A stretch of DNA of 64,000 bases from Methylomagnum ishizawai (lineage in GTDB: Bacteria; Pseudomonadota; Gammaproteobacteria; Methylococcales; Methylococcaceae), in assembly GCF_900155475.1 (NCBI RefSeq), contig NZ_FXAM01000001.1, forward strand, positions 3,110,881 through 3,174,880, written 5' to 3'. Each line of letters begins with the position of its first letter. Within the stretch, counting starts at the first letter, position 1. Position numbers and translations under genes: made by a program. Under the pieces are notes generated by a model that worked only from the letters and a program-made list of their open reading frames with translations, searched no databases and was not told the origin of the DNA. Positions 6,379 to 36,271 of this stretch are shown here, piece by piece.

Positions 6379-7131
6379 TTAAGCCGCGAGGCAAATTGCG
6401 AGGAAGGATTTGGCATCCAAGGAAGCGCCGCCGACCAGACCGCCATCCACATCGGGCATCCCGAACAGCGCCGCCGCGTTGTCGGCCTTGACGCTGCCAC
6501 CGTAGAGGATTTGCAGACCTTCCGCCACTTCCGCATCGAGTTTGGCGATTTGGGCGCGGATATAAGCGTGGACTTCCTGGGCTTGCTCGGTGGTGGCGGT
6601 GCGCCCGGTGCCGATGGCCCACACGGGCTCGTAGGCGATGACGGCTTGGGACAGGGAAGCCACGCCGCACAGGTCGAGGACGGCCTGCAATTGTTCGTCG
6701 ATCACGGCGAAGGTTTTGTCCTGCTCGCGTTCTTCGAGGGTTTCGCCGACGCAGAAGATGGGGGTGATGCCGTGTTCGATGGCTTTGGCGTAGCGGGCGG
6801 CGACCAGGGCGTTGGTTTCGCCGTAAACCAGGCGGCGTTCGGAATGGCCGACGATGGCGTAGGCGCAGCCGAACTCCTTGAGCATGGGCGCGGAAATTTC
6901 GCCGGTGAAAGCGCCTTGGTCTTGGTCGGCCACGTTCTGGGCACCGAGGGCGATGGTCTTACCGGCCAGCATGGCTCCGAGTTCGGGGATGAACACGTAG
7001 GCGGGGCAGACGCCCACCTGGGCCTTGGCATCGGTGGGCAAGCCCGCGAGCAGGTCCGCCAACAACTGTTGCGCGGTCGCGCGGGTGCAGTTCATTTTCC
7101 AGTTTCCAACCACCAAGGGACGGCGCGCCAT
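6379..7131 (-). CDS. tpiA: Triosephosphate isomerase
   Basis: Interconverts dihydroxyacetone phosphate and glyceraldehyde 3-phosphate in glycolysis and gluconeogenesis. The protein has 250 residues. The catalytic residues are K12 (in GNWKMN), H96 (in IVGHSERR) and E168 (in AYEPVWAIGTG). The phosphate-gripping YGGSVKADN loop is near residue 210. The start has a strong ribosome-binding site (CAGGAG) about seven bases upstream. It is the first gene of the tpiA-secG-tRNA-Leu group. Confidence 0.98.
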   Translation of the reverse strand: MARRPLVVGNWKMNCTRATAQQLLADLLAGLPTDAKAQVGVCPAYVFIPELGAMLAGKTIALGAQNVADQDQGAFTGEISAPMLKEFGCAYAIVGHSERRLVYGETNALVAARYAKAIEHGITPIFCVGETLEEREQDKTFAVIDEQLQAVLDLCGVASLSQAVIAYEPVWAIGTGRTATTEQAQEVHAYIRAQIAKLDAEVAEGLQILYGGSVKADNAAALFGMPDVDGGLVGGASLDAKSFLAICLAA

Positions 7132-19623: not shown

Positions 19624-24231
<4,608 letters not shown>

Positions 24232-24250: not shown

Positions 24251-27200
24251 TTATCCGCCCTGGCCGGACCCGGCGTCCCCATCGAGCCATTCGGGGTGCC
24301 CGGCGCAGGCCGAGCGCAACAGGGCCAGCACCGCCTCGTAATCGTATAGGGTCAGCAATCGCTTGAGTTCGACCGCCTTCTGGCCCAGCACGGCGTTCAA
24401 CAATGGCTCCGCCTCCTGAAACACCCCGCCCGCCCGCATATCGTCCTCGGCCAGCAAACGGTACAGCCGGGCGATGACCGGTCCCGCCCGGCTCCAATCC
24501 GGGGTCGCCTCCACCATCAGCGCCTGGGATTCGGGTATCGCCCGGATCGCCTCGACCAAGGCCCGCTGTTCCCGTTCCAAGGGGATGGACAAATCCAGGA
24601 GGATGTCCATGGACCGGGCTTCGCGCAAAGCGGTTTCCAAGTCCAGGGCCAGGCCGCGCACCCGTTCCGCGCCGATGGTGCCCGCCGCGCCCTTGAGCGA
24701 ATGCGCCACCAAACGGGCGGCGGTGAATTGGCCGGCTTCGAGCAGGGAGCCAAGCTTGGCGGTATCCCCGGCATGGACCTGGGCGAACAGGCGTAACAGG
24801 CGCAGATAGCTGTCGCGCTGGCCCAGGACGCCGCGCAAACCCAGTTGCGGGTCCACGCCGGGCAGGGCGTCCCAAGGCTCGGCGGCGGGATCGCCGGGCT
24901 GTTCCGGCCCGGCGGGCGCGGGCGTCGCCCCGCCGGATTCCGGGTCGACGCGGGAAGGCAGCCATTTCGAGACGGTGGCGAACAAGGCCTCGGGCTCCAC
25001 CGGCTTGCCGATATGGTCGTTCATGCCCGCCGCGAGGCAGCGGGCGCGGTCCTCCTCGAAGGCGTTGGCGGTCATGGCCAGGATCGGCGTCCCGGCCCGG
25101 CCCGGCAGGGCGCGGATCGAGCGGGTGGCCTCTAGGCCGTCCATCTCCGGCATTTGCACATCCATCAAGATCAGGTCGTAGGCGTTACGCCCGGCGAGTT
25201 CGACCGCCTGCACGCCGTTCCCGGCCAAATCCACCGAGAATCCCAAGCGGCGCAGCAGCTCCAAAGCCACTTCCTGGTTGATGGGGTTGTCCTCGGCCAA
25301 CAAGAGGCGCGCGCCCCGGAATTTACGCACCATGATATCCCGCTCCTGATGGGGGACGGGGACCGCGCGTTCACGGCCCCCGCCGTTGAAAACCTTCACC
25401 AGCACATCATACAGGTTGGATGGCGTGACCGGCTTGGACAACACCGCCTCGAACCCGGCCTCGGCCATTGCGCGCTCCGGCGGGAACTGGGTGAAGGCGG
25501 TACACAGCACCGGGGCCGGGGGCCGGGCCAGCGGCATTTCCCGCAGCCGCCGGGCGGTGGCGAGGCCGTCGAGTCCGGGCATCCGCCAATCCAGCACCAG
25601 CACTTCGTAAGCCTCGGAGCGCCGGTCAGCCGCGACCACGGCGGCCAGCGCCGCCTCGCCGCCCGCGGCCACGTCCACCCGCATCCCCATCTGGCGCAGC
25701 AAGTCGGCCAAGGCCTCGCGGGCCTCCGGCAAATCGTCCACCACCAAGGCCCGCCTGTCCTTGACCCGGCCATTCAAACGCTTGGGCTGGGACGCGCCCT
25801 TGCCTAGCCGCACCGTGAACCAGAAGGTGCTGCCCGCGCCGGGCTGGCTGAGGATGCCGACTTCGCCGCCCATCATCTCGACCAAGCGGCGGCTGATCGC
25901 CAGCCCCAGCCCGGTGCCGCCATAGCGCCGGGTGGTGGAACCATCGGCCTGCTCGAACGCCTTGAACAAGCGGGCTTGATGCTCGGGCTCGATGCCCACC
26001 CCGGTGTCGCGGACCTCGAAGCGCACCTGGATATCGTGGTCGGTCTCCTCGATGGCCTGGGCGCTGACCATGACGAAGCCCTGTTCGGTGAACTTGACCG
26101 CGTTGCCGGTGAAGTTCAAGAGGATTTGGCCCAGCCTGAGCGGGTCGCCCTTGAGCAGGCCCGTGAGCCTGGGCGATTCGCGGAAGATGAGTTCCAGACC
26201 CTTGGCCTCGGCCTTCTCCCGCACCAAATCGCAGACCTTGTCCAGCACCCGGTCGAGTTCGAAATCGGTGTTTTCCAGCACCAGCCGGTTGGATTCGATC
26301 TTGGAGATATCGAGGATGTCGTTGATGATCGCCAGGAGGTGTTGGGCGGCGTCGTTGATCTTGCCGAGATATCCCTGCTGGCGCGGTCCCTGGGCATCGC
26401 GCCGGAGCAAATGGGTGAGACCGATGATGGCGTTCATCGGCGTGCGGATTTCATGGCTCATATTGGCGAGGAACACGCTCTTGGCGCGGCTGGCCTGCTC
26501 GGCCACGTCCTTGGCGGCGGCCAACTGGGTCTCGGCGCGGCGGCGCAGCAGGATGCGCCAGAGGTCGTCGCCGACCAATTGCAATTCGTGCATATCCGAC
26601 TCGTCGTAATCGGCGGGCTTGTCACCCACGCCCAACAACAAATGGACCTGGCCATCGCCCATCACCGGCACGGCCATATGGCGCTGGACCGGGCCATCGG
26701 CCAGGGTGTCGCCCGGCCCGTCCAGGGGATAGGCGTTGTGGATGCACGGGCGGCGGATACGCACCGGGTCGGCCCAAGGCCCGGCCTGGTCCAGGGAGCG
26801 GTCCGCGGCCGGCGGCTCCAAGCCGGTCGCCACCCAGGCCCGCAGCGCGAGACCGGCACCGTCCTCGCCCACGGCGTACAGGTAGCCGAAGGCGCTGCCG
26901 GTCAACCGCGCCGCCGCGGCCACGCCCTGCCCGAGCAGGTCGGCCTCGTCCAGCCCGGCGGCTTTCTGGCTCAGGGCGAACATGGCTTTGAGCCGGGCAT
27001 CGCTGGTCAGGAGGCGGCGGTTGGCGGTCTCCAGTTCGGCGGTGCGCTCCGCCACCAAGTCCTCCAGGTGCCTGCGGTAATGTTCCAGTTCGCGCTCCAC
27101 CGCCTTGCGCCCGGTGATATCCTCCTTGACCGCGAGGTAATGGGTGACCCGGCCATCGGGCTGGCGGATCGGCGAGATGCGGGCGAACTCGGTATAGAAC

Positions 27201-30200
27201 CCGCCATCCTTGCGGCGGTTGATGAATTCGCCTTCCCAGGGCCGCCCCTGGGCTAGGCTGGCCCACAGCGCTTCGTAGGTGGATGGTGGGGTGAGTTCGG
27301 AATTCAAGATGCGGGGATTCTGCCCCAGCGCCTCGGTCCGGCCATAGCCGGTGATACGGGTGAAGGCGTCGTTGACGTATTCGATGCGGGCATCAAGGTC
27401 GGTGATGACGATGCTGTTGAGGCTCTGCTCCACCGCCAGCGACAGCTTGCGCAACTCCTCCTCGGCCCGCACCCGCTCGGTCACATCGTGCATGACCGCC
27501 AGGGTCGCGGCCTCTTCGCCCTGGCCCGGAATGGCGATGGTGTGGATTTGCACGGTGCGGTACCCGCCGTCCTTGCGGCGGATGGTCCATTCCTCGCCCA
27601 TCAAGTGATCGCCCTGGCGCATCCGCTCCATGCGCTGGCGGGCCGCTTCCCGGACACCGGCTTCGGCGTAGAGGGTCTGGTACCAACCCAGCTGGTTGAT
27701 CTCACCCAGGGTGTAGCCGGTCAGGTTGCGCATGGCGCGGTTCCACACGGTGAAGCGGGTGTGGGGCGGCTCGGCCTGGATATGGCAGACCGCGATGCCA
27801 TCGACCTCGGCGTCGATCACCGATTGGGTGAAGGCCACCTGCCGTTCCAAACGCAGCTGCAGCGCCTTGCGCTCGGTGATATCGCGGACGATGGCCTGTA
27901 GATACACCGCGCCGCGCATCTCGACCCGGCCCAGGGCGATCTCGACATCGAACAGGCCGCCATCCACCCGCCTGGAGCGCCATTCGAAGAACTGCGGCCC
28001 CTCCTCCAGCGCGGCCTGGGCTTTCTCCTGGGCCGCCTCCAGCGAAAGCCGCCCATCGGGCTGCCGTTCCGGGGAAAAATCAATCGGACCATGGCCGACG
28101 ACTTCCGACCGGGTCAGCCCATACATCCTGGCCCCCTTCTCGTTGCAGTCCAGGAAGCCGGTCGCGTCCTGTAGGAAGATGCCATCGTTGGCCATCTCGA
28201 ACAGCAGCCGGTATTTGGCCTCGCTGTCGCGCAGTTCGCGCTCGGCCCGCTTGCGCTCGGTGATATCGCGCACGATGGCGGCGAAATAATAGCGGCCCCT
28301 GAGGTTCACCAGCCGGTTGCTGACGTAGACATCGCGGACTTCGCCGTTCTTGTGGCGGTGCTGGTTCTCGAAATCGGCCCCGCCGGTGGCGAAAATCTCC
28401 CGCACCTTCCCGGCGACATCGGTGGAGGAATGCCCGCCCTGGAGATCGGGGACGCCGAGCTTGGCGAATTCCTCGCGGGTATAGCCCAGGTCGCGGCAGG
28501 CGGCATCGTTGAATTCGACGAAGCGCAGGGTTTCGGCATCCACCAGGAGGATGCCGTCCCCGGCCTGGCTGACGATGGCCCGGTAGAGTTCCTCGCTGTC
28601 CCTGAGGGCGCGTTGGCGGGCCTCGCGCTCGATGGCGATCCCGGCCAAGTAGGCGGCGGCGGTGATGCGTCCCAGATCGTCGGCACCGGGCACGCCAGGC
28701 ACGCCGCGGTAGATGGCGAAAGTCCCCAACACCTGCCCCCTTTCACCCCGGATCGGCTCCGACCAACAAGAGGCGAGACCGGCCGCGGCCGCGGCTTCCC
28801 GGAACCCGGCCCAAAATGGATGGGTTTGGAGGTTCTCGGCGACCACCCGCCGGTTTTCGTACGCCGCGGTCCCACAACAACCCACCCCCGGCCCGATTTC
28901 GACGCCATCGCAGAAACGGTTGTAGGCTTCCGGCAGGCTGGGTCCGGCTCCATGGCGCAGACGGCGCGATTCCGGGTCCAGCACCAGGATCGAGCAGAGG
29001 GTGCCGGGGGATTCGGCCTCGACGGCGCGGGCGATGCCATCCAACACCCCGGCCAGGGGCACGCCCCCGGCGATCCGCTCCAGGATATCCATCCGCGCCC
29101 GTTCCCGGCGTTCCAGGCGCTTGCGCCCGGAAATATCGCGGCAGACGCAGAAGGCCAGCATCCGCCCGTCGATCTCCGCACCCGAACAACTGACTTCCAC
29201 ATCGATCTCCGCGCCGTCCTTGCGGCGATGGCGGGTCTCGAAGCGCGCCCCCGCGGCACCGGCCCGCCGCAACATCGCCTCCAGTTCCAGGCGGTCCCAC
29301 CGCGCGTCCCAATCCCAGACATGCAACGCCAGGATTTCGGCGGCGGAATACCCCAGCATTTCGCAATAACTCCGGTTGGCCTCGCACACCCCGCCCTCCA
29401 TGTCGAGGACCACGATGCCGTCGGAGGACTGCTCGAACAAGACGCGCCGCCGGACGGCTTCCCCGGCGATGGCCCGCGCCGCCCGCTTTTGTTCGGTGAT
29501 ATCACGCACCACGCCCTGGTACATGACCTTGCCGTCGATCTCGAACGCCGTCAGCCGCACCTCGGCGTCGAACTCGGTGCCGTCCAACCGCCAATGCCGC
29601 CATTCGAAGAACTGGGGCTGGCCGCTGGACGCCAGCCCGATCCACTCGGCGGCGGCGGCGGTGGAATCGCGGCCATCCGGCTGCGCGGGCGGCGAAAACC
29701 GCTCCGCCGTGGCCCCGATCAGGTCGGCGCGGGCGCAGCCGAAGACTTCCAGCGCCTTGGGATTGCAATCCACGAACACCGGCCCGTCCGAGACCAGGAT
29801 GGCATCGGCGGCGGTCTCGAACAGGGCGCGGAAACGGGCCTCGCTGTCGCGCAGGGCGTCCTCGGCCCCGCGCAGCGCCGTAATATCGCGGGCGATGCCC
29901 AAGACGCCGATCAAACCGCGTCCCGGCTCGAACAAAGGGGTCTTGACGGTCTGGAACAAGCCGCGGTAGCCGTCGGCGGCGAATTCCAGCCATTCCTCGT
30001 TGGCGCAGGGCCGGCCCGCCGCCGCCGCCACCCGGTCGTTGTCGCGGAAAAAATCGGCCAGTCCGGCGGGGACGAAATCGTAATCGGTCTTGCCCACGAT
30101 ATCCGGCCCGGCGGTTCCGAAGAGGCGCTCGAAGCTGGGGTTGCAAGCCAGGTAGACGCCTTCCGGGTCTTTGAGCCAAAGCGGGTCGGGGACGGCGTTG

Positions 30201-32680
30201 AACAAGGTCCGCAGCAGGGCGCGTTCGCTTTCCAATTCGCGCTGCGCCCGCCGGGTCGCGGTGATGTCGCGGAACGACCACAGCCGCGCCCGTTGCCCCG
30301 ACCACTCGATGGGACGGGTGAAGCGCTCGAATACCCGGCCATCCTTGAAATCCAGCATGTCCCACCGCTCCTCGTCGCTGGCGTAGAGCCGGTCCACCTC
30401 GCGCCGGAAGCCTTCGGGGTCCACCAATTGGTCCAACACATAGTCCAGCAAGCGCGGGTCGCGGCCCTCGGCCAGCAGCGCGTCGGGCACGTCCCACAGC
30501 GCCTGGAAGCGCTGGTTGCACGCCAGCACCGCGCCGTCCGGCCCGATCACCAACAAACCGTCGGCGGTGGAATCGAGGATGGCCCGCAACATCGCTTCGC
30601 CCCGGCGCAGAGCTTGCCTGCTTAGCACCGTCTCGGTGATATCGCGGGAAATCGCGAAGATGGCGGGCTTCCCGTTCCAATGGCCCAGGGAAATGTGGGT
30701 ATCGGCCTCGATCCAAACCCCATCGGCCCGCACCAGGGGCAAAGGACAATCCTTGCGCTCCCCCGAGATCATTTCGGCCAAAATGTGCCGCGCCTGTTCC
30801 CGGACCGGCCCAGGATGAGCCGCCAGGGCCGATTGTCCCAACAAGGACGGCCCATAGCCCAGGCCGTCGGCCACGGCGTGGTTGTAATGCAGGATACGGC
30901 CATCGGCGGTGTCCACCACGAACACGAAATCGTCCATCGCCCCGAACAGCCCGTCGAGGTTCTGGCGTTGATGGGTCGCCTGTTCCTGGTCGTGCCAGCG
31001 GCGCAGGGCTTGGCCGAACTGATGGACCAGGGTTTCCAGGGCGGCCAGGGTATTGGTGCCAAAGCGTCCGCCCCGCTTGCGGGCCAAGTTGAGGCAGGCC
31101 ACCGCCTCGCCCCCGACCAGGATCGGCAGCACCAACAGCGCCCTGATGCCTTCCCGCGCCACATCCTCGCCCTGGATCAGGTCGTTGTCGGGGCAGTGCG
31201 GGCCGGGATCGGCGCAAGCGCAGCGCATCCGGCCTTCGCGGATGATCCCGGCCCTGGGGGAATCGGCGGGGACCCTTTCCACCCGCGCGACGAAGGCGTC
31301 GGACAGGCCGCGATGGACCACGAGTTCATAGTCGCCCGCCGCCTGCCGCCAATAAAGTCCGCCGCCGTCGATTTCCGGCAGGGCCAGGGCGCCGTCCAGG
31401 ATCGCCGCCAGCAAACTGTCGCGATCCGGCTCGCCGTTCAGGAACCGGGCGAATCCGAGTTGGGTCTTGAGCAGCAGTTCGGCGTGCTTGCGCCCGGAAA
31501 TATCGGCCAGGGTGCCGACCGTGCGCAAGGCCCGCCCCCCGGTGTCGTATTCCGCCACCCGCGCCCGGTGATGGACCCAGAGCCAAGCGCCATCGGTCCG
31601 GCGGATACGGTATTCCATTTCGCACAAGGGATTGGCGATGGACAAAACCAACTCGATCTGGTCCAGGACGCGGGGCCGGTCCTCGGGGTGGATCAACCCC
31701 AGCCAATCATTCAGGCCACACGGCGCGGCGGCGGGATCGCCCCCCAACAAAGCCAGGGCCTCGGGGCTCCATTCATGGCGGTCGGCGCGGTGGTCGTATT
31801 CCCAGATACCCAGCCCGGTGGCTTCCAGCACTAGGCGCAGGCGGTGTTCGGCCCGGTTTTTCTCTTCGTGCAGGGCTTGGCCGTGGTGCCAGCTCTCGTC
31901 GAGCAATTGGATGCCGAGCCTCTCCAGCAAACGGTGTTGGCTGACCACCCCGGCCAAATGTCCGTCCGGCTCGACCACCGGCATTTGCCGCACCCGGTGC
32001 CGCGCCATGATTTCCACCGCTTCCGCCACGCCGATCCCCGGTTCCAGGCAATGCAGGGGATGGCTCATGACCTCGCCCAGGCGGATGCGGGCGGGATCGG
32101 CATGGCGCACCAGGAGTCCGGGCATATCGCGCTCGGTGAGGATACCGACCGGCCGCCCGTCCTCCACCACCAAGAGATGCTCCCGGCGTTCCCGGATCAT
32201 CCGCGCCAAGGCCTCGGCCAGGGAAACCTCCGGGGCCATCGTGCCCAGGTCCAGTTCCATGACGCTACGCAAATCTTCGATCTTGCGGAAAATATCCAGG
32301 CCCAGGTGGGTGCGGAAATCGGTGCTGGACGCGATACCCACCGCGCGGCCCTGGCCATCCACCGCCACCAGGTGGCGGACGCGGTGGCGTTGCAGCAGGG
32401 TGTAGGCGGCGCGGAACTCCAGGTCCGGCGGGGCCGTCACCAAGGGGGCGCTCATGAAGCCGGACACCGGCGTTTCCAGCGGCATCCGCTCGCACAACAA
32501 CCGCACCATGTCGCGCTCGGTCAGGATGCCCAGGGGCCGGTCGCCCTCGACCACCAGCAGCGACGAAACCCTGGCCTCGCTCATGCGGCGGGCCGCCGCC
32601 TCCAAGGAACACTCGGGCGGCACGCCCAGCACCCGTGCGCTCATGATGTCGGATAGTTTGAGATGGGCGATGGCGTTCAT
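24251..32680 (-). CDS. Giant soluble hybrid histidine kinase: CBS(4)-PAS/GAF array-HK-REC-REC-HPt
   Basis: A 2,809-residue cytosolic kinase starting at ATG 32678-32680, 43 bases after the HD-GYP gene. No membrane helix is visible. Approximate order: four CBS domains (8-262); PAS1 (278-397); GAF1 (405-565); PAS2-PAS6 (575-1185); GAF2 (1190-1355); PAS7-PAS10 (1357-1860); coiled coil; GAF3 (1895-2055); HisKA with H2076; HATPase (GTGLGLAI); REC1 with D2364 ([10 protein letters not shown]); REC2 with D2507 ([11 protein letters not shown]); HPt with H2660 (AHSLKGA); C-terminal helical tail. All phosphotransfer residues are intact, so a full H-D-H-D relay is possible. CBS domains bind adenine nucleotides in known proteins; PAS and GAF domains sense small ligands, redox state or cyclic nucleotides. 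PAS5 and PAS8 share QFFEWR and FSPxxQPDGR, suggesting internal duplication. The obvious output is the HD-GYP regulator just upstream. Confidence 0.93.
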
Positions 32681-32723
32681 GGGGACGTTGGCCGGGCAGG
32701 ATGGCGGGCGGTGTGGCGGCGGG

Positions 32724-33857
32724 TCATCCCTCGCCGGACTGCCCGCACAGTTCCGGGTCGGCGTGGCGCTGGGCGATCCGTTGGAATTCGTCGAACACCT
32801 CCAGGAAGGCATCGACTATGTCGGGATCGAAATGGCGGCCCCGCTCCCTGGCGATCACTGCGCGGGCCTCGGCGAAGGACAGGCCGGCCTTATAGACCCG
32901 TTCGCTGGTCAAGGCGTCGAACACATCGGCCAGGGCGATCAAGCGGGCCGAGACCGGGATCGCTTCCCCGGCCAGCCCGTCGGGATAGCCGCCACCATCC
33001 CATTGTTCGTGGTGGTGGCGGGCGATCTCCTGGGCCAAGCCCAGGAACTCCAGCGAGCGCTCGACCCGGCCCAGCACCTCGGCGATGGCATCGCCGCCCA
33101 GGTTGCTGTGGGTCCGCATGACGGCCTGCTCCTCCGGGGTCAACCGGCCCGGCTTGAACAGGATGTGGTCGGGGATGCCGACCTTGCCGATATCGTGCAA
33201 CAGGGCGGATTTCGCCATCACCTCGATGACGCGCTCGTCCAGGATGCCCGCGAACCGGGGATGGCCGAGCAAGCGCCGCGCCAGCACCCGCACATATTCC
33301 TGGGTGCGGCGCAGGTGCGCCCCGGTCTCCTGGTCGCGTATTTCCACCAACCGCGCCAAGGCCTGGATGCCGGCCTCCTGGATCGCCTGGTTCTCGCTGA
33401 GGCAGCGGGCCACCTGGGCTTCGAGATAGTCCGCCTGGTCGCGCAAGCCGTCCCGCGCCCGCTTGAGTTCCAGATGGGCGCGGACCCGCGCCAGAACCAC
33501 GGCGGGACGCAGGGGCTTGGTGATATAGTCCACCGCGCCCAGCGCCAGGCCGCGCTCCTCGTCTTCCGGCGTGTCCAGGGCCGTGACGAAGATCACCGGA
33601 ATATCGTGGAAACTAGGGTGGTCACGGAGTTGGGCCAGCACGGTGTAGCCATCCATGCCGGGCATCATAATATCGAGGAGGATGAGGTCGGGGGTGGGCG
33701 GGGTCGCGACCACCGCCAGGGCGCGTTGGCCGGAGTTGGCAACCCTGACGCGGTAGAACGGCCTGAGCAAATCGCCCATCACCGTGAGGTTTTCCGGCCC
33801 GTCGTCCACCACGAGGAGGGTGGCATCGAAACAATCTGGCGTGCGCTGCTTATCCAA
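32724..33857 (-). CDS. Two-component response regulator with HD-GYP domain (RpfG-like)
   Basis: A 377-residue response regulator that probably hydrolyses the second messenger c-di-GMP. The receiver domain (about 13-130) has acidic residues in VVDDGPEN, phospho-acceptor D62 ([12 protein letters not shown]) and the switch lysine in ITKPL. A coiled linker leads to the HD-GYP domain (about 160-350) with [12 protein letters not shown] and [15 protein letters not shown], the HD and GYP signatures. It is the first gene before the giant kinase (43-base gap), so the pair is likely one operon and one signalling circuit. No sign of GGDEF or EAL proteins in the window. Confidence 0.95.
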
Positions 33858-34744: not shown

Positions 34745-34912
34745 CGTGCCGCTGCCCGCTTGACTTATACTTGATCCGGTATCCCGGTCCGTCTGGAACG
34801 GGTCCGGGCCGCGATTGTGCTGGAATTCAATGATGCCCGCAATCGCCGGTCCCGGCCAAGGCACGCCGGTACCATCGGACCCCGCCTTTTCCAACCCCGA
34901 GGAAACCCGCCC

Positions 34913-36271
34913 ATGAAATCGCTGCTAAGCCGGTTCAAATGGCCGTTCCGAACCCAGGCGACAACCCCACCGGAACCCCTGCCCGAACCCAGGTTCGAGT
35001 CCGCCCCGGCGCCGACACCACCGGCCCGCCGGGCGGCCGCCATCGAATTACAGACCTTGCAGCAACTGTTTCCGTTGCGCACCTTGGACGAAGACACCCT
35101 CAAAGCCTTCGTGCTGGACCGCGAGGCCGATATTTATCCCGAGGGTTCCATCCTGTTCCGCCAAGGCGAACCGGCGCATTCGGTGCATTACCTGCTGCAA
35201 GGCCGCGTGGCCTTGGAAACCGCCGAGGGCACCGGCTATGAAATCCAGGCGGGATCGGCCCAGGCGCGGTTCCCGCTGTACGCGGGTCGGCAGTACAACG
35301 CCACCGCCCAGGCCAAGACCGAAATCCAGGTGCTGCGGATCAGCGCCCAAATCATGGCCCAGTGCGAACCCGGCGCGACAACCCTGGGCACCGACACCGA
35401 CCCGCTCGACCTCGAACTGCCGGACGCCGTGCGCGACAACCCGGTTTTCCAAGCCTTCCATGAACACTATCTCGGCGGCGGCCTGGCATTGCCGACCCTG
35501 CCCACGGTGGCGGCCAAGCTCGGGCAGGCCATCGAGCGCGATTGCCATCTGCGGGAGTTGGCGGGGCATGTCCAACTCGATCCGGTCATCGGCTCGCGTT
35601 TGGTGAGCGTCGCCAACAGCCCTTTGTACCATGCCGGGGAGCCGGTCAATTCCTGCCACGACGCCATCGCCGTCTTGGGGATGGCCGCCACCCGCAACCT
35701 GGTCCTCGGCCTGTGCCTAAAACGGGTGTTCGAGTCCAAGGAACCCAGGGTCAACGCCCTGTTGCACACACAATGGAAGCAGAGCCTCCAGCTTTCGGCG
35801 CTGTGCTATGTGTTGGCCGGGGAGAACGGCGGCATCGACCGGGAGGAGGCTTTGCTGGCTGGTTTGATCGCCGATATCGGCGCCCTGCCCTTCCTGTCTT
35901 TCCTGGCGCGGACTTCGGGACCGGCTTGGTCGGAGGCGGATGTCCAAGCCATCTTGCCCCTGGTGCGCGGTCCCCTGGGTGCCCATCTGCTGGGCCGCTG
36001 GCATTTCCCGGCGGAATTGGCGCGTATCCCGTGCTTGGCGGAAAACTGGTACCACGATGGCGGTCCCCGGCTGGACCTTGCCGATATCGTGATCCTGTCC
36101 AAGCTGCACGCCTATATCGGCACGCCGCGCCGGGCCGAACTGCCCGCCATCAACGCCATCCCGGCCTTCTCCAAGCTCAAGGAAGGCAAGTTGTCGCCGG
36201 AGCTATCGCTGGACATCCTGGCCAAGGCCAAGCATAAGATCGGCCAGGCGCTCAAGGTGTTCTCGGGCTAA
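34913..36271 (+). CDS. Cyclic-nucleotide-binding / HDOD domain protein
   Basis: A 452-residue soluble regulator starting at ATG 34913 with GAGGAAA upstream. After a short basic, proline-rich N-terminus, a cNMP-binding (CNB) domain occupies about residues 45-160, with YPEGSILFRQGEPAHSVHYL as its signature. It is followed by an HDOD domain (about 190-400; LPTLPTVAAKLGQ, SVANSPLYHAGEPVNS). HDOD domains are HD-superfamily folds lacking the hydrolase metal site, used in signalling. The stop codon shares four bases with the convergent acyl-CoA ligase stop. Ligand (cAMP, c-di-GMP or none) is not readable from sequence. Confidence 0.88.
   Translation: MKSLLSRFKWPFRTQATTPPEPLPEPRFESAPAPTPPARRAAAIELQTLQQLFPLRTLDEDTLKAFVLDREADIYPEGSILFRQGEPAHSVHYLLQGRVALETAEGTGYEIQAGSAQARFPLYAGRQYNATAQAKTEIQVLRISAQIMAQCEPGATTLGTDTDPLDLELPDAVRDNPVFQAFHEHYLGGGLALPTLPTVAAKLGQAIERDCHLRELAGHVQLDPVIGSRLVSVANSPLYHAGEPVNSCHDAIAVLGMAATRNLVLGLCLKRVFESKEPRVNALLHTQWKQSLQLSALCYVLAGENGGIDREEALLAGLIADIGALPFLSFLARTSGPAWSEADVQAILPLVRGPLGAHLLGRWHFPAELARIPCLAENWYHDGGPRLDLADIVILSKLHAYIGTPRRAELPAINAIPAFSKLKEGKLSPELSLDILAKAKHKIGQALKVFSG

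Follow-up and report, generated by a model that had tools for sequence, protein, structure and literature searches.

The 64,000-nucleotide stretch of Methylomagnum ishizawai DNA analysed here (the window; contig NZ_FXAM01000001.1, positions 3,110,881 to 3,174,880) encodes, on the reverse strand, a hybrid histidine kinase of 2,809 amino acids (aa) at 24251..32680. Directly upstream of it, on the same strand and 43 nt from the kinase start, lies a 377-aa response regulator (32724..33857), in which Pfam detects Response_reg and HD_5 domains, that is, a REC-HD-GYP protein. We found that this giant many-sensor kinase is real and functional-looking; it belongs to a known kind, but stands out by its size, the order of its domains and its traded sensor parts. 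The adjoining regulator, which is predicted to destroy cyclic di-GMP (c-di-GMP), is its probable partner.

Domain organization of the kinase

The kinase is read from the ATG at 32680. The frame remains open as far as 32812 (open reading frame 24251..32812, reverse strand, 2853 aa), with this ATG as its M45; in the sister species, the corresponding frame (locus L040) has its first start codon, at position 6562, opposite the same ATG. With a length of 2854, this is the longest open frame among the 46 HisKA matches of the genome, of which 44 exceed the cut-off, the runner-up reaching 1832. Pfam searches of separate protein segments, using curated cut-offs, gave the order CBSx4-PAS-GAF-PASx5-GAF-PASx4-GAF-HisKA-HATPase-REC-REC-HPt, followed by a C-terminal helical domain (CT). 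Thus, the 10 PAS, three GAF and four CBS domains proposed in an initial annotation of this DNA were recovered segment by segment, all above cut-off.

The coordinates, all on the reverse strand, are as follows. The four CBS domains, forming two Bateman pairs, occupy 31916..32659 (PF00571, E 1.8e-48, 280 aa in 4 stretches), with individual spans of 32495-32659, 32300-32470, 32111-32272 and 31916-32083. PAS1 (31478..31849; PAS_3, 66.8 bits) and GAF1 (30998..31426) come next, and then PAS2 to PAS6 within 29111..30967, namely, 30629-30967, 30242-30598, 29861-30220, 29480-29842 and 29111-29452. GAF2 (28715..29080, its Pfam match extending somewhat more 3') precedes PAS7 to PAS10 within 27095..28594, namely, 28241-28594, 27863-28222, 27461-27829 and 27095-27448; GAF3 (26543..26941) lies within the helical linker from PAS10 to HisKA. 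Every one of the ten PAS segments is matched by one or more PAS models at scores exceeding the curated cut-offs, and GAF1, GAF2 and GAF3 score 49.7, 58.9 and 69.5 bits, respectively, with GAF_2, vs a cut-off of 28.6. The output end comprises HisKA (26282..26488), HATPase_c (25811..26155), REC1 (25400..25753), REC2 (24971..25309) and HPt (24617..24817), each above its Pfam cut-off. The phospho-acceptors H2076, D2364, D2507 and H2660 are all present in HisKA, REC1, REC2 and HPt, respectively, as first described.

The kinase is apparently soluble, as had been claimed: a hydropathy scan, made without a dedicated membrane-helix predictor, revealed no obvious membrane segment, and mean hydropathy above 1.6 over 19 residues occurs only within the core of GAF1. 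The same domain carries a CxCx7C cluster, a possible metal or redox site, the CxC part of which is retained in loci L040, L043, L044 and L047 and lost in L041.

All domains of the original list therefore stand, but this list omitted CT (24263..24556), a predicted all-helical domain of about 100 aa after HPt; the last 114 aa of the protein have no Pfam match. A predicted model of HPt plus CT, built from 3 sequences, reached a mean pLDDT (predicted local distance difference test) of 84.4 and a predicted template modelling score (pTM) of 0.58. A fold search with this model ranked HPt domains first and returned nothing at E ≤0.001, and hence nothing firm about CT. The domain is common to many HPt kinases of the order, including many array kinases that adjoin REC-HD-GYP genes, and could serve as a docking domain.

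Conservation of the kinase and of the gene pair

A full counterpart of the kinase, of 2,810 aa and with the same order of 23 domains counting CT, is encoded in the sister species (genome G001, locus L040). The two proteins are identical at 2586 of 2811 alignment columns (92%), with nonsynonymous (dN) and synonymous (dS) substitution rates of 0.041 and 0.149, a ratio of 0.28. The gene is thus under purifying selection, which is strictest in CBS1 (dN/dS of 0), REC2 (0.04), HATPase (0.07), REC1 (0.10) and HisKA (0.11); the values of 0.04-0.11 in the kinase and receiver domains support the earlier statement that the array is not decayed. All 17 sensor domains were detected in both species, and 11 of them have dN/dS below 0.3.

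Conservation of the whole order in related genomes had been put forward as a sign of a real unit. A search of 61 genomes with the N-terminal 821 aa of the kinase brought up the counterpart in G001. The two genomes of the genus that were seen both have the whole order, which occurs in 0 of the 48 other front-end proteins classified; it was thus seen solely within the genus, the shared core being more widespread. For instance, genomes G002 and G016 encode a shorter form of 1,994 aa, CBSx4-PAS-GAF-PASx5-HisKA-HATPase-REC-REC-HPt-CT. In addition, a scan of genome contigs gave one relative, at locus L009 of a Gallionellaceae metagenome-assembled genome. A plasmid search with the kinase gene returned 14 partially matching records and none at 80% coverage.

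The adjoining regulator looks intact and, from its motifs (HDIGK and HHHExWDGGGYP), its HD_5 match (E 1.8e-32) and its best solved match, the c-di-GMP phosphodiesterase 4r8z (E 1.1e-54 for the HD-GYP part), is predicted to destroy c-di-GMP. Its best NCBIfam match, the NosR-family c-di-GMP phosphodiesterase regulator NF053512, scores 158.5 bits, below the 400-bit cut-off. The regulator-kinase arrangement is kept in the sister species, whose regulator is 94% identical over 366 aa and 92% over 377. At L009, a regulator homologue (57% identity) lies directly upstream, with an 11 nt gap, of a PASx5-HisKA-HATPase-REC-HPt array kinase.

To place these cases in context, we considered 34 regulator loci, namely, the best 33 matches listed (all at 52% identity or above) plus L009, several of which end at contig edges; two shorter matches, in G002 and G016 (63% over 251 aa), were left out. 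A histidine-kinase ATPase gene lies at most 300 nt away on the same strand at 19 of these loci (17 downstream, two upstream), which span eight genera, that of L009 included, and within 5 kb at 27, as far as the fetched flanks extend. Leaving out the window and its orthologue, from which the idea came, the figure is 17 of 32. The background for this frequency is a rough one, the 46 HisKA matches in the 5.48 Mb genome. The sensor parts of the regulator-linked kinases differ, those of the window and its orthologue being the longest among those listed. At four loci (L084, L085, L100 and L101) the regulator adjoins a PAS array in which the models used detected no kinase domain. Three consecutive signalling genes occur at L099 (463-11590, reverse strand), where the REC-HD-GYP gene is flanked by the gene of an 8-PAS hybrid kinase on one side and by a CBSx2-PASx6-GGDEF gene on the other.

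Outputs of the four-CBS front end

The initial annotation was right about an intact kinase with many inputs, but overlooked both the adjoining regulator and the kinship of the front end with c-di-GMP proteins. With a profile of the four-CBS block, matches at E ≤1e-40 were obtained in 30 of the 311 genomes searched from the order and in 17 of a sample of 369 from the class, the window's own genome being counted in both sets. We classified the outputs of 50 of the 56 distinct listed matches with home-made profiles seeded on Pfam-confirmed domains; five were not fetched and one (G439) was dropped. Forty-three of the 50 are c-di-GMP enzymes, namely, 32 GGDEF-EAL, many of them from one genus, six GGDEF and five HD-GYP proteins, and seven, from four genera, are histidine kinases. 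The protein from G439 has a kinase-type ATPase end and only two detected CBS domains (three in another scan); if counted, kinases would be eight of 51. That the front end sits mostly on c-di-GMP proteins fits the regulator adjoining this kinase.

The CBSx4-PAS-GGDEF-EAL and CBSx4-PAS-GAF-HD-GYP proteins share the front end of the kinase, their CBS blocks being 33-50% identical to its own (seven alignment rows of c-di-GMP enzymes) and single PAS domains up to 64%. They differ in having the c-di-GMP enzyme in the same chain, where the giant kinase has a phosphorelay. Two such proteins, at L043 (12900-14594, reverse strand) and L044 (8452-10143, forward strand), have the order CBSx4-PAS-GAF-PASn-GGDEF-EAL, with a chemoreceptor zinc-binding (CZB) domain as the last domain.

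Growth of the sensor array

The resemblance between PAS5 and PAS8 had been taken as a sign of growth by internal duplication. These two domains are 48% identical; among 354 collected PAS domains, the orthologue being excluded, the closest match of PAS8 is PAS4 from a protein with the four-CBS front end and GGDEF-EAL output (64%), and that of PAS5 is PAS5 from the four-CBS kinase of G459 (50%). Each is therefore closer to PAS domains of other proteins than to the other. In a tree of 62 rows, restricted to close matches of PAS4 to PAS8, the PAS5 group (support 97/81) and the PAS8 group (98/99) are separate. Best matches and tree thus lend no support to a recent internal duplication. Both subtypes probably go back to an older common ancestor, and, since the tree does not fix the mutual order of the two groups, an old duplication may have preceded the spread of the modules.

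Other PAS domains have near kin elsewhere as well: PAS7 in an array kinase (57%) and PAS4 in kinases and GGDEF proteins (58-60%). PAS9 is without a near relative among the 354 (best 29%). The four-CBS kinases of G459 and G461 contain relatives of the window's PAS7, PAS5, PAS4 and PAS6, in this order, with a second PAS7-like domain between those of PAS4 and PAS6. These comparisons suggest that modules were traded among genes, and that this, and not recent copying in place, probably enlarged the array. Domain shuffling in hybrid kinases was already reported for Azospirillum (PMC4618731).

The segment between PAS10 and HisKA is 203 aa long here and in the sister species, and 15-55 aa in eight other kinases compared, six of which have 34-35 aa. 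By this comparison, GAF3 is an insertion into the signalling helix between PAS10 and HisKA. In terms of CBS, PAS and GAF domains together, the window's kinase has 17, and those of L050, L164 and L041 have 13, 12 and 11, respectively. Its ten PAS domains are surpassed by relatives at L047 (6110-13168, forward strand; 2,352 aa) and L048 (5732-12772, reverse strand; 2,346 aa), each with 13 PAS and one GAF, without CBS, and each followed by a REC-HisKA-HATPase gene.

It is tempting to speculate, at somewhat less than even odds, that in related bacteria a portable cassette of four CBS and PAS/GAF domains reaches c-di-GMP in three ways, through GGDEF-EAL, through HD-GYP, or through a phosphorelay kinase that acts on a separate REC-HD-GYP protein. 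Single PAS modules would move among these genes and change order, as in G459 and G461, such that sensor content would evolve separately from output chemistry, the end effect on c-di-GMP remaining constant.

A neighbouring, convergent kinase of 1,535 aa (19624-24231, forward strand) combines NMT1 and SBP_bac_3 binding domains with PASx3, HisKA, HATPase, REC and HPt; its last PAS is 62% identical to PAS10 and its REC 70% to REC2 of the giant kinase, and a similar kinase occupies the same place in the sister species. Divergent from the regulator-kinase pair, a gene at 34817-36271 (forward strand) encodes a protein with cyclic nucleotide (cNMP)-binding and HDOD domains.

Candidate input signals

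CBS1, CBS2 and CBS3 carry a motif of the G-h-h-[ST]-x-x-D type, the Asp of which is the ribose-binding residue; CBS4 reads GVVSQHR and has thus lost this Asp. The suggestion that the CBS domains read adenine nucleotides is plausible. PMC8846402 describes CBS domains in c-di-GMP proteins as thought to sense energy, and counts them with the domains whose roles in such proteins lack experimental validation; PMC1592074 mentions CBS domains that precede kinase or HD-GYP outputs at the N-terminal side.

PAS10 aligns over most of its length with the PAS domains of 3ewk (MmoS; E 4.9e-38) and 2gj3 (NifL; E 4.6e-24). Since both are redox sensors that bind flavin adenine dinucleotide (FAD), PAS10 by analogy probably reads redox through the flavin.

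Proposed mechanism and alternatives

We propose that the protein is a cytosolic many-input hybrid kinase that works with the adjoining upstream REC-HD-GYP regulator as a pair of the RpfC/RpfG type, a reading to which we assign a probability of about 0.6. Adenine-nucleotide status (CBS), redox (PAS10) and ligands of the remaining PAS and GAF domains would probably be among the inputs, acting on HisKA via helical linkers such that H2076 becomes phosphorylated. The phosphate would then pass from H2076 to REC1 or REC2, to H2660 of HPt and on to the receiver of the HD-GYP regulator, and would thereby switch c-di-GMP hydrolysis. We infer the direction of this relay, the choice of partner, the ligands and the sign of the effect; in the RpfC/RpfG model (PMC3749722), phosphorylation activates the phosphodiesterase.

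Several observations weigh against this reading. No kinase ATPase gene lies within 300 nt at 15 of the 34 regulator loci, and HPt, detected in 12 of the 19 near kinases, was undetected in seven; the loci are not independent, several coming from one genus. The genome encodes three more such regulators (E ≤1e-60), which, with the 46 HisKA matches, makes cross-talk possible. Moreover, the models used detected no c-di-GMP or receiver gene in the flanks examined of the four-CBS kinases of G002, G016, G459 and G461, so that the pairing of front end and regulator is not obligatory. Finally, PAS9 (dN/dS of 1.10), PAS1 (0.69), CT (0.67) and CBS4 (0.61), all on small counts, look loosely held.

Part of this evidence would suit a less likely reading, an orphan hub kinase whose HPt feeds several response regulators, possibly DNA-binding ones, the HD-GYP neighbour being one of many or incidental. 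HPt-bearing hybrid kinases often serve several regulators, two receivers could provide branch points, and the four genomes just mentioned would exemplify kinases without such a neighbour. Against it stand the retention of the regulator beside the kinase in the sister species, the presence of such a pair, formed with another kinase, in the Gallionellaceae genome, and its recurrence at 19 of 34 loci. Less probable still, the protein would be mainly a scaffold, or its gene would be in transition, with many modules being passive recombined spacers and control of the kinase left to the last ones (PAS10 and GAF3) and possibly the CBS tier. Module number and order do vary among genera, and PAS9, PAS1 and CBS4 reach dN/dS of 0.6-1.1 on small counts; against this, 11 of 17 sensor domains have a ratio below 0.3, and all 17 were detected in both species.

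An artefact of assembling repeated kinase sequence, for which we found no supporting point, can be ruled out almost with certainty. Direct DNA repeats of at least 30 nt within the gene are 30-40 nt long and 60-86% identical, too short and diverged to suggest repeat-driven misassembly; without long internal repeats, and with an identical order in a 92% identical protein of a second species of the genus, this explanation was rejected.

Thus, a giant multi-sensor kinase that adjoins a predicted c-di-GMP-destroying enzyme probably combines numerous internal cues in a single decision of the biofilm-or-motility type. If the proposed relay holds, a single protein would integrate energy, redox and ligand cues into one c-di-GMP decision. 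Relatives with fewer or reordered modules and swapped outputs offer a natural series for studying the passage of signals over a dozen tandem domains and the growth of sensor arrays, and the insertion of GAF3 into the signalling helix, immediately ahead of the kinase, provides a well-defined individual case for testing.

Comparison with known systems

The architecture of the kinase is not named in the titles or abstract openings of the open-licence literature searched. HisKA His, HATPase, REC Asp and HPt His are present in one chain, as in tripartite hybrid kinases. BarA, TorS and ArcB share this HisKA-HATPase-REC-HPt core, and provide the top-scoring whole-kinase NCBIfam models, but the giant kinase has other sensors and a second REC, and scores below the equivalog cut-offs of all three (446.5/890, 441.8/676.5 and 420.1/838 bits, respectively). 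The likeness to MmoS and NifL concerns PAS10, the only part compared; in domain order, the remainder of the kinase resembles neither.

The closest parallel is RpfC/RpfG of Xanthomonas. RpfC is a membrane-embedded sensor of diffusible signal factor (DSF), and rpfF encodes a member of the enoyl-CoA hydratase family; the window has no ECH_1 match, the genome's two matches lying on another contig (C2). As described in PMC3749722, a histidine kinase with receiver and HPt shares an operon with a REC-HD-GYP phosphodiesterase, and the order rpfG-rpfH-rpfC likewise places the regulator first and the kinase downstream. Here too a REC-HD-GYP regulator is encoded beside a hybrid kinase with HPt. The giant kinase differs from RpfC in its lack of an obvious membrane segment by the hydropathy scan, in its 17 predicted cytosolic sensors, in its two RECs and in its extra C-terminal domain.

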